Of a stretch of 64,000 bases of DNA, positions 1 through 3,333 are shown in pieces. The DNA lies in assembly GCA_028277645.1 (NCBI GenBank), contig JANQFV010000021.1, positions 1-64,000 on the forward strand, written 5' to 3'. The notes beneath the pieces are model-generated. The model was not told where the DNA came from. It saw nothing but the letters and a program-made list of their open reading frames with translations, and ran no database searches. Position numbers and translations under genes: made by a program. Each line of letters begins with the position of its first letter. Position 1 is the first letter of the stretch. Origin of the DNA: Phycisphaerae bacterium (GTDB lineage Bacteria > Planctomycetota > Phycisphaerae > UBA1845 > Fen-1342).

Positions 1-704
1 CTTAGCCGGGGCTCCGCGATCAAGTAAACCTCCATCATGCCGTTGCAGCCGCTGTCTTTCCCCGGAGCACAGAAAGACGTGTGATACCACCACTGTTGCG
101 CATAATAGACCCAGGAACTTGTTCTGCAGGGCAGGGAATCGTAGCTGCCTTCCCAGTTCGTCCCGGCCACGCCGCAGTTCAGACCTCGAATCTCCCGCCA
201 CGTTCCCGCAATCTCGTCAAGGCTCTCAAGAACGTGTATCTCGTACATATTGTCGCTGTTGACGAGACATGTGCCATCCGTACCCGCGGGCAGGGTAGGT
301 AGACAACCGTTGTCCGCGAAGCACTGAATCAGAGTGCGGTAGAGGTCGTTGCTGTCTCCCTGTGCAAGTTGACACGCCAGGTGGCAGGCTTGTTGCTCAC
401 TTCGCACTCCGCCGGAACCGCATTGCGCGTGACAGACGAGCGCTTCACCGCAAGCAGGATTCAGCACGCACAGGATCACCGGCAACGTGCAGTTCGTCAG
501 TCCGCACAGGAACAGTTCGGGATCGAAGAGCGGGGCGTTGTCAGTGTCATCGACGCTCTGCGTCGCGTCGTTCGGAGTCGGCCATGGGGCCAGTAAGGGA
601 CCACAGCCTTGACTCAAGCCGAGAATGAAAAGAGCGGAAACGGCGAGATGTACTCCATTCGCTCTTGCTCCCGGACGCAACGGATCATGGGCCCAACTCT
701 TCAT
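1..704 (-). CDS. Violaxanthin de-epoxidase-like lipoprotein (3' end outside window)
   Basis: An open frame of 234 codons runs without a stop from ATG at 704 to the window edge, so the C-terminus is missing. Residues 20-34 form a hydrophobic stretch ending in a Cys (SQGC), so it is probably an exported lipoprotein, although the lipobox is not canonical. Residues 67-134 hold ten Cys with spacing C-x4-C-x6-C-x5-C-x5-C-x3-C-x11-C-x3-C-x16-C-x5-C. From memory this matches the Cys-rich N-terminal domain of plant violaxanthin de-epoxidase almost gap for gap. From about residue 160 a lipocalin-like part begins (AGTWREIRGLN, then YDSLPC), matching the VDE lipocalin start (GKWYITSGLN, FDAFDC). VDE uses ascorbate to de-epoxidise xanthophylls in the thylakoid lumen; the bacterial substrate is unknown. 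Family call fairly sure, function not. Confidence 0.8.
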   Translation of the reverse strand, partial: MKSWAHDPLRPGARANGVHLAVSALFILGLSQGCGPLLAPWPTPNDATQSVDDTDNAPLFDPELFLCGLTNCTLPVILCVLNPACGEALVCHAQCGSGGVRSEQQACHLACQLAQGDSNDLYRTLIQCFADNGCLPTLPAGTDGTCLVNSDNMYEIHVLESLDEIAGTWREIRGLNCGVAGTNWEGSYDSLPCRTSSWVYYAQQWWYHTSFCAPGKDSGCNGMMEVYLIAEPRL

Positions 705-830: not shown

Positions 831-904
831 TAGGCCGGGCGGGATTCGAACCCGCACTGGAGGGATTTTAAGTCCCTTGCCTCTGCCAATTGGGCTACCG
901 ACCC
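831..904 (-). tRNA. tRNA-Leu(UAA) with a short (class I) variable loop
   Basis: A complete 74-nt cloverleaf folds on the minus strand. The acceptor stem is GGGTCGG/CCGGCCT with a G-U at the end pair and A as discriminator. The D-stem has three pairs, the anticodon stem is AGGGA/TCCCT around loop CTTAAAA (anticodon UAA), and the T-arm is GCGGG-TTCGAAT-CCCGC. CCA is not encoded. The three-pair D-stem, the AATTGGCAGA loop and the anticodon arm are those of bacterial tRNA-Leu(UAA), which normally carries a long variable arm; here the variable region is only CCAGT. All stems are intact, so it does not look decayed. Confidence 0.92.
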
Positions 905-935: not shown

Positions 936-1982
936 CTACTGCGAACAGATCGTTACGGGTTGGCCGGAGGGACTGATTGTGATGTCAGCGTATCCCGTGA
1001 CGTTCGTCTTGAGGTAGCCCAGCCCGAGCCAGTGCTCGCCCCGCGGATGGCGCACCAGCGACGTTACGTGCCCGATCTCCACGCCGTCACGAAGAAGCGG
1101 CTGCGGCGGGGGGGGGTCTTCAGCATTAGCGATGCGTAAAGCGACCAGGCGCTTTGCCAGCGCCCCGCGCGAACGCATGCGCTCCAGCACTTCGTGCCCT
1201 ATGAAGCACCCCTTATTGTAGCTGACACCGCGCTCGATCTGCCCCGTCTCGGGCGGCACGGTAGTGTCGTCGATATCGCGGAACAACCACGGGATGCCGT
1301 TCTCGATCCGCCGGACGTCCAACGTGTCGTGGCCGGCCGGCGTCACGCCCAGCCCGATCAGACGCTCCCACCACTTGGCGGCATCGCCACGGGGCACTAC
1401 GAGTTCGAACGCTGTGTCACCGGCGATGTCGTGGCGAATCAGGCGCGTTGCGCCGTTCGGTATCGGTGCGTGAGACAACGCCGACATATCCGTCAGGTTG
1501 CTAACGCCCAGTTCGAAGGCGACCTGTGCCGCACGCGGCCCGCTGCATGCTAGGCGGGCAAACTGGCCGGTCGCATCGGAGACACGCACATCTTCCGCGA
1601 TCAGGTAGCGATCCAGGTGTGCCGCGGCGGACGCGAGAGCCGCGAGGTCGAGGTCGAGCCACAGTTCGTCCGGCAAGCAGAACGCATTGACGTCGAAGAC
1701 GATGCGGCCTTTCACGTTCACCGCAAAGGCATAGCAACCGAGACCGGGAGTCAACGGAGCGATCGCGTTAGTCAGCAGGCCGTGGAGCCACTGCTTAGCG
1801 TCCGAGCCGCTGACTGACAGGACACCGCGGTCCGAGCGGTCAAAGAGCGCCGCGCCGGAACAGACGGCGTCGTACTCGTCCGCCAGGTCGCCGAACAGTA
1901 GTGGGCGCGTTACGCCGGCGTGTTCGGACGTGGCGGCGGGCGCATAGTTTGGCGCTTCAAAGAACGGCGAATTTGCGGTCAT
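936..1982 (-). CDS. ygfZ: YgfZ/GcvT-like folate-binding protein
   Basis: The protein has 348 residues from ATG 1982; an upstream extension of the frame lacks similarity to the family and was dropped. It is a tetrahydrofolate-binding paralogue of the glycine-cleavage T protein that helps maintain or repair certain iron-sulfur enzymes. The diagnostic signature KGCFIGHE, with the reactive Cys, lies around residue 250, and the N-terminal part (FDRSDRGVLSVSG, WLHGLLTN) is typical of the family. It is divergent from cinA across about 100 bp, so the two probably share a promoter region. The length is normal. Confidence 0.88.
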   Translation of the reverse strand: MTANSPFFEAPNYAPAATSEHAGVTRPLLFGDLADEYDAVCSGAALFDRSDRGVLSVSGSDAKQWLHGLLTNAIAPLTPGLGCYAFAVNVKGRIVFDVNAFCLPDELWLDLDLAALASAAAHLDRYLIAEDVRVSDATGQFARLACSGPRAAQVAFELGVSNLTDMSALSHAPIPNGATRLIRHDIAGDTAFELVVPRGDAAKWWERLIGLGVTPAGHDTLDVRRIENGIPWLFRDIDDTTVPPETGQIERGVSYNKGCFIGHEVLERMRSRGALAKRLVALRIANAEDPPPPQPLLRDGVEIGHVTSLVRHPRGEHWLGLGYLKTNVTGYADITISPSGQPVTICSQ

Positions 1983-2085
1983 ACGACGATCGTCACTCAG
2001 GCTGCTGACGGATGGCTCGCTCGGACCCGTGGTTTGCTTACAATCAGCGTAAGACAAGACGAAGGCCTGTGCAACGCGGAGTGTC

Positions 2086-3333
2086 ATGCGGAAGGCGACC
2101 ATCATCTCGATCGGCGATGAACTGATCCTGGGTCAGACCGTGGACACGAACAGCGCCTGGCTAGCGAGCAGGCTCGCGGAGTTCGGCGTCCGCGCCACGC
2201 GACATGTGACGGTTGCAGACGATCGGGAAGCGATCGGAGCGGCGCTGAAAGCCGTGGTCGGTGACAGCGGTCTGGTGATCCTAAGCGGCGGGCTTGGTCC
2301 CACTGCGGATGACGTGACGCGTTTCGCACTTGCTGACGGCGCCGGGGTGGAGCTGCGTGTACACGCACCGAGCGTTGAGCGGCTGCGGGCATTCTTCGCG
2401 GCGCGGAGTCGCGACTTACCCGAAGCGAATCTGATTCAGGCGCAGATTCCAGAGACCGGCACCGCGCTCGTCAACACGTGCGGAACAGCCCCGGGCATTT
2501 ACATGCGGATAGATGGAACGCCGGTATTTGCATTACCCGGCGTGCCGCACGAGTTGCGTGAGATGTTCGCTCGGGAAGTTGCACCCGTGTTAACGGAAAC
2601 AGCTGTCGGTAATGTCATCCGCTCCACCTGTGTTCAAACGTTCGGCCTGCCGGAGGCGGAGATCGGTCGCAGACTTAGCGACCTCATGGAACGCGAACGC
2701 ATTCCGCAGGTCGGCACGACGGCCGCGTTCGGTCTGATTGGCGTGCGGATCAACGCGCGCTCGGCGTCGGCGGAAGCGGCGCACGAGATGCTCGACGCAA
2801 CGCGGACGGAAATTGAACAACGCCTGGGCCGCTACGCCTTCGGGCGCGACGACGACACACTGGCCAGCGTTGTCGGCCGCGCTCTCCGCGCAGTGGGGCA
2901 GACCCTGGCGACGGCCGAATCGTGCACCGGCGGCTTGATCGGGGCGCAGCTCACGGAGGTACCCGGATCGAGTGATTACTACGTGGGGAGCGTCGTATGT
3001 TATGCAAACCACGTCAAGGAGAAGATGCTCGGCGTACCGGCCGAATTGCTGGCCGCACACGGAGCGGTAAGCGAACAAGTCGCGGAGGCGATGGTGGCCG
3101 GCTGTGCGGCGCGGTTCCAGACGGACTACAGCCTCGCCGTTACGGGCATAGCCGGTCCGACTTCCGACAACTCGGAGAAACCGGTCGGGCTGGTGTTTAT
3201 TGGACTGTCTGACGGCAGTGCGACGGATGTGCGAAAGCACCTTTTCGGTGCCGATCAGCCCCGCCATGCGATTCGACTGCGGGCGGCGTACTCGGCACTG
3301 AACCTGCTGCGCCTGCGGCTTCTGGATGCTTGA
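2086..3333 (+). CDS. cinA: CinA family protein, NMN amidohydrolase
   Basis: The full-length 415-residue protein has both expected domains. The N-terminal molybdopterin-binding-like domain carries GDELILGQTVDTNS and SGGLGPTADDVTR; in the family it has ADP-ribose pyrophosphatase-type activity. The C-terminal PncC domain from about residue 265 carries TAESCTGG and SLAVTGIAGPT; it deamidates nicotinamide mononucleotide to nicotinate mononucleotide in pyridine nucleotide salvage. A GGAG Shine-Dalgarno lies 4 bases before the ATG. It is transcribed away from ygfZ and followed by a 150-bp gap. Confidence 0.93.
   Translation: MRKATIISIGDELILGQTVDTNSAWLASRLAEFGVRATRHVTVADDREAIGAALKAVVGDSGLVILSGGLGPTADDVTRFALADGAGVELRVHAPSVERLRAFFAARSRDLPEANLIQAQIPETGTALVNTCGTAPGIYMRIDGTPVFALPGVPHELREMFAREVAPVLTETAVGNVIRSTCVQTFGLPEAEIGRRLSDLMERERIPQVGTTAAFGLIGVRINARSASAEAAHEMLDATRTEIEQRLGRYAFGRDDDTLASVVGRALRAVGQTLATAESCTGGLIGAQLTEVPGSSDYYVGSVVCYANHVKEKMLGVPAELLAAHGAVSEQVAEAMVAGCAARFQTDYSLAVTGIAGPTSDNSEKPVGLVFIGLSDGSATDVRKHLFGADQPRHAIRLRAAYSALNLLRLRLLDA

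Follow-up and report, generated by a model that had tools for sequence, protein, structure and literature searches.

A truncated gene of the violaxanthin de-epoxidase family in a Phycisphaerae genome and its bacterial relatives

The stretch of DNA analysed here (the window) comprises the first 64,000 nucleotides of contig JANQFV010000021.1 from a Phycisphaerae bacterium (assembly GCA_028277645.1; 4.55 Mb in 72 contigs, 94% complete; G000 in the following). The window starts at base 1 of the contig, and a gene for a protein of the violaxanthin de-epoxidase (VDE)/VDR family is truncated at this edge: it begins with the ATG at 704 and runs off the contig past base 3, leaving the first 234 residues. 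VDE protects plants from strong light. The gene and the features of its product were located as follows:

3..704, minus strand: truncated VDE/VDR-family gene (open reading frame, PF07137 match, longer relatives)
603..704, minus strand: signal peptide and lipobox LSQGC with Cys34, predicted lipoprotein (pattern match)
303..506, minus strand: ten-cysteine domain, residues 67–134, spacing 4-6-5-5-3-11-3-16-5 (alignment)
3..257, minus strand: first part of the lipocalin domain, residues 150–234 (Pfam match and alignment)
138..140, minus strand: Asp189, aligned to Asp114 of Arabidopsis VDE (alignment)

The window gene is a member of the VDE/VDR family. The alignment reproduced exactly the positions and spacing of the ten cysteines given in the first-pass annotation, and the plant VDE spacing given there, 4-6-5-5-3-8-3-14-6, fits the cysteines C9, 14, 21, 27, 33, 37, 46, 50, 65, and 72 in the Figure 2 legend of PMC13181403. 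One further conserved cysteine, beyond the ten, was found at residue 146. The Pfam VDE model (PF07137) matched residues 67–176 with an E value of 1.3e-4 and 21.9 bits, just below the cut-off of 25.7; the second half of the model falls past the contig edge. The longer relatives scanned passed the cut-off with 45–125 bits. Since all relatives retrieved with a full-length relative as query carry PF07137 (102/102), the match of the window piece is not due to chance. The family profile had one match among the solved structures, the lipocalin of Arabidopsis VDE (E 1.2e-6), and the AlphaFold model of a relative predicted a lipocalin barrel preceded by a helical, cysteine-rich domain. Each of the ten cysteine columns was occupied by Cys in 42 or 43 of the 43 alignment rows, the single miss being L010, which is cut by a contig edge. 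The lipobox was found by pattern in the window protein and in 47 of 83 relatives. At the C-terminus, only 2–23 residues follow the last cysteine in seven representatives, which lack the Glu-rich C-terminal domain of VDE proper. Altogether, the interpretation of the gene as a VDE relative was upheld. Separately, loci from the phylum of L015's genome (L050–L055) encode larger proteins matching only the ten-cysteine part of the VDE profile with 20–26 bits, and the Cys-rich domain may thus occur on its own in bacteria.

Residue roles were taken from PMC13181403. Only one of the four key positions, Asp114 (Asp189 of the window protein), is visible in the window, and Glu177, Trp179, and Tyr198 could be read only in the relatives. 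The first-pass annotation had placed the Asp of the YDSLPC motif near the catalytic position, but this residue aligns with Arabidopsis Asp114, described as an ascorbate and dimer contact (PMC13181403), and not with the catalytic Asp177, which belongs to the missing part. In group A (23 rows besides the window), Asp114, Trp179, and Tyr198 were present in 23/23 rows and Glu stands at 177 in 23/23, Arg replaces Gln119 in 22/23, and Trp replaces Phe123. The 14 VDR-type rows show Glu177, Gln119, and Tyr198, and neither the acid at 177 nor Trp179 or Tyr198 varies across the group A and VDR-type rows. Group B (L057 and L058; Bdellovibrionota) has Asp177, Gln119, Phe123, Trp179, and Tyr198, that is, the VDE catalytic set, while group C (L059, L060, L061) carries Glu177 but Val at 198. 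Accordingly, the bacterial proteins share with Arabidopsis VDE (3cqn/3cqr) PF07137, the lipocalin fold, Asp114, Trp179, and Tyr198, to which group B adds Asp177 and Gln119, whereas groups A and C have Glu in place of the catalytic Asp. In their genomes, both genes of group B are flanked by a LysR regulator on one side and an MFS transporter on the other.

Glu at 177 is the state of VDL and VDR (PMC13181403). Glu177, Tyr198, and the ten cysteines, which characterize VDR of algae and plants together with the ten-cysteine plus lipocalin architecture, were all found in the relatives (the window itself shows the ten cysteines only), and the protein of L009 is 34–40% identical to VDR-type rows of probably algal origin. 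However, VDR is a protein of photosynthetic eukaryotes and the carriers found here are named bacterial records; moreover, the bacterial family differs from VDR in its frequent lipobox, in a partner lipoprotein gene described below, and in the group A substitutions at 119 and 123. Because position 177 has the VDL/VDR state in its group, yet the carriers are bacterial, the window protein is best called VDR-like and not VDR.

VDE-family proteins were present in named records of Planctomycetota, Candidatus Hydrogenedentota, one Oligoflexales (Bdellovibrionota), and one deltaproteobacterium placed in Myxococcota. Within the order to which the window belongs, profile A3 detected the family in 9 of 114 genomes (G042 and G060 have nothing more than fragments, and contig edges truncate the copies of G000 and G051). 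The same profile detected it in 5/58 genomes of the phylum of L014's genome, groups B and C included, and in at least 6/282 of the phylum of L015's genome (one full length and five weak matches to the Cys-rich domain only), a lower bound as eight candidates were scored per genome. Searches with PF07137 gave 5 carriers among 61 relative genomes and 1/392 in the phylum sample, the window's own. The bacterial VDE family is rare and patchy. Trees were built from 29 bacterial rows, the window included, and the 14 VDR-type rows, hand-picked from 123 proteins and from the loci; the lipocalin-only tree was made without the window row and the full-length tree without Arabidopsis VDE. Group A formed one clade both in the lipocalin-only tree (100/100) and, with the window, in the full-length tree (97/98), and the VDR-type rows formed a single clade in the full-length tree only (91/91). 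The trees settle neither direction nor root. The VDE proteins of two Hydrogenedentota genomes, encoded at L007:4953-5945 and L008:10022-11014, share 95% identity, and L007, which represents them in the trees, was placed among planctomycete rows; this suggests transfer between phyla.

When Coesel (2008) searched 915 microbial genomes with the Cys-rich domain, there was no match; the lack of prokaryotic homologues was taken to suggest that VDE is an ancient eukaryotic innovation, and it was proposed that an early eukaryote had fused the Cys-rich part to the lipocalin part (PMC2483416). A 2026 review states that the xanthophyll cycle is absent from all prokaryotes and treats the origin of VDE as an open question (PMC13181403); the same review gives the role and substrates of VDR as not known, and PMC7465010 says the same of its role. 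In literature searches aimed at bacterial VDE, whose coverage did not extend to subscription papers and preprints, no title among those listed (12 of 183 in one search) reported a bacterial homologue. Bacteria have the complete fusion of both domains in at least three sequence groups and in four phyla, and one of the groups shows the VDE catalytic set. This contradicts the premise that no prokaryotic homologue exists, and the bacterial relatives provide test proteins for the ancestral substrate.

A second gene, coding for an uncharacterised lipoprotein, accompanies the family. It adjoins vde in 5 of 15 VDE loci (L006–L015 and L057–L061, some with short flanks), lying just upstream in L006 and L009, just downstream in L015, and divergently in L059 and L060. 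This partner had no meaningful Pfam, NCBIfam, or PDB match; its predicted fold is beta-rich, and of the 113 homologues examined, 109 showed a lipobox by pattern. The partner profile was detected in all 17 VDE-carrying genome entries, which correspond to 15 distinct genomes of four phyla (the pairs G454/G500 and G455/G502 look identical, having the same coordinates), mostly apart from vde; in G000 only its first 44–50 residues were found, at the end of contig C70. Partner homologues are far more numerous than VDE (1633 at E 0.001). Among the 61 relative genomes, 15 carry the partner, including all seven with a VDE gene or fragment, and the hypergeometric probability of this association was 5e-4 for the five Pfam carriers and 1.5e-5 for the seven carriers, uncorrected for kinship. 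Being present in every VDE-carrying genome tested, the partner offers a genetic handle on function, that of VDR included. In L009, a TspO/MBR gene (L009:11467-12108) lies about 0.5 kb from vde and the partner. Members of the TspO/MBR family have been connected with porphyrins and oxidative stress.

Of the ten genomes that carry the partner but no PF07137 match, eight were examined at the partner locus, none of these loci having an intact VDE gene. In five of them (L083–L087), the partner lies amid genes of a light-response type, namely combinations of MerR/B12 photoreceptor-like regulator, GTP cyclohydrolase I, Fasciclin, SOUL, Blc lipocalin, photolyase, and SDR-DUF2867 genes. In the MerR-type regulators of L083, L085, L086, and L087, B12-binding_2 scored above and B12-binding just below the cut-off, and that of L084 was a 24% match. 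L090 has Fasciclin, amine oxidase, DUF1365, two cyclopropane-synthetase-type genes, and a desaturase near the partner, and in L088 and L089 the families sought were absent. The LitR/CarH proteins belong to the MerR-type regulators and have B12-binding domains; in Pseudomonas, photolyase, UfaM, FolE, and CryB are among the light-inducible genes under LitR/CarH-type control, and the cluster also holds an SDR and an FAD oxidoreductase (PMC9758184). The neighbours of the partner in L083–L087 likewise include a MerR-B12 regulator, photolyase, SDR, and GTP cyclohydrolase I; however, VDE is not named in the available text of PMC9758184, while here a single VDE remnant lies inside such a cluster, the C-terminal 73 residues of a VDE protein still being encoded between the partner and SOUL in L087. 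A SOUL gene also stands beside the group C vde of L061. Thus, a link of bacterial VDE to light would follow from the neighbours of the partner in other genomes and from one VDE remnant.

With regard to the substrate, carotenoid genes were sought in carrier genomes other than those of groups B and C. The crtI model scored above its cut-off in 2 of 11 distinct carriers, G457 (the one among 12 VDE-carrying genome entries, 10 of them distinct) and G054, and not in the other nine tested, G000 included; the remnant carrier G042 has crtI, and 4 of 14 control genomes have it above the cut-off. Lycopene cyclase (PF05834) was above the cut-off in 5/11 carriers, with a match extending beyond the first 153 of 380 positions only in G457, and in 9/14 control genomes as well, while G000, G058, and G453 gave no match. 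As most carriers tested lack crtI above the cut-off, which also sets them apart from Arabidopsis VDE, the substrate is probably not a carotenoid of their own and more plausibly a lipid of the membrane or a different hydrophobic molecule in oxidised form.

Considering these results, we propose, with a probability of about 0.5, that the window gene encodes a bacterial VDE/VDR member that likely acts as an exported, disulfide-locked lipocalin enzyme in a response to light or photo-oxidative stress. The family assignment, ten cysteines, key residues of the relatives, predicted fold, spread over four phyla, and presence of the partner in every carrier tested were computed, and the remaining steps are read from them. 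The lipobox would direct export and lipid anchoring of the protein, the ten cysteines would form disulfides locking the lipocalin, and the latter would take up a hydrophobic cell-envelope molecule in oxidised form, which, as residue conservation suggests, may be altered with the glutamate as proton donor; the part played in light stress and the exclusion of self-made carotenoids as substrate are likewise deduced. It weighs against the link to light that, apart from the SOUL gene of L061, the families of the light-type clusters did not turn up around the intact VDE genes that were searched, nor in the window, in L033, or on C70.

The closest competitor, which we regard as possible but clearly less probable, is a non-enzymatic periplasmic lipocalin that binds or transports a ligand, lipid or haem-like, in the manner of Blc and ApoD, its VDE-like residues serving folding or ligand binding only. 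Blc is a lipocalin too, and four further loci (L084–L087) have its gene close to the partner; it belongs to Pfam Lipocalin_2 and has no ten-cysteine domain. Against a non-enzymatic role, the invariant acid at 177, Trp179, and Tyr198 of the 23 group A and 14 VDR-type rows seem more than ligand binding needs, and group B also retains Asp177 and Gln119. A true carotenoid de-epoxidase or isomerase, acting on algal or self-made carotenoids, appears improbable. It would agree with the action of VDE and VDL on epoxy-carotenoids, VDL with Glu at 177 turning violaxanthin into neoxanthin (PMC13181403), and with the crtI of G457 and G054 and the lycopene cyclase of the former, but not with the nine carriers lacking crtI above the cut-off or with G000, which lacks a lycopene cyclase match as well, and prokaryotes are said not to make ascorbate (abstract of PMC6191929).

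Recent transfer or contamination from algae, already weakened, is very improbable, even though every named carrier is a metagenome-assembled genome and the distribution within the order is patchy (the 9/114 above). The few homologues with an organism name (P0037, P0083, P0093) are bacterial, homologue P0062 lies on a 4.5 Mb contig, group A is one clade in both trees, and there are three bacterial groups. The neighbours of the window gene also identify the contig as bacterial:

831-904, minus strand: bacterial-type tRNA-Leu, upstream of the VDE gene
936-2105, minus strand: GCV_T/YgfZ-type gene, upstream of the VDE gene
beyond the GCV_T/YgfZ-type gene, plus strand, opposite to the VDE gene: cinA

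Beyond the proposed light-stress enzyme, we consider, tentatively and with more doubt than confidence, that the fusion of the ten-cysteine and lipocalin parts arose in heterotrophic bacteria as a light-stress lipocalin enzyme, which with the beta-rich lipoprotein would have repaired photo-oxidised membrane lipids, and that algae later turned it to carotenoids. If this were true, plant photoprotection would descend from a bacterial device of lipid protection.

Pieces of VDE genes were also met outside intact copies. In G000, L031 1-238, at the start of contig C46, is 94% identical over 238 bp to window 1-238; it breaks at the same base as the window copy and there follows, as an in-frame fusion, an N-terminus of unrelated sequence, which looks integrase-like by eye only (no Pfam match, one PHROGs match with E 0.28). 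The piece belongs to a genuine mosaic gene unless the assembly is chimeric. L016:10001-10253 is a 253-bp VDE fragment embedded in unrelated sequence and 87% identical to the intact copy (L009) of the same bin. VDE pieces seem to be scattered through these genomes.
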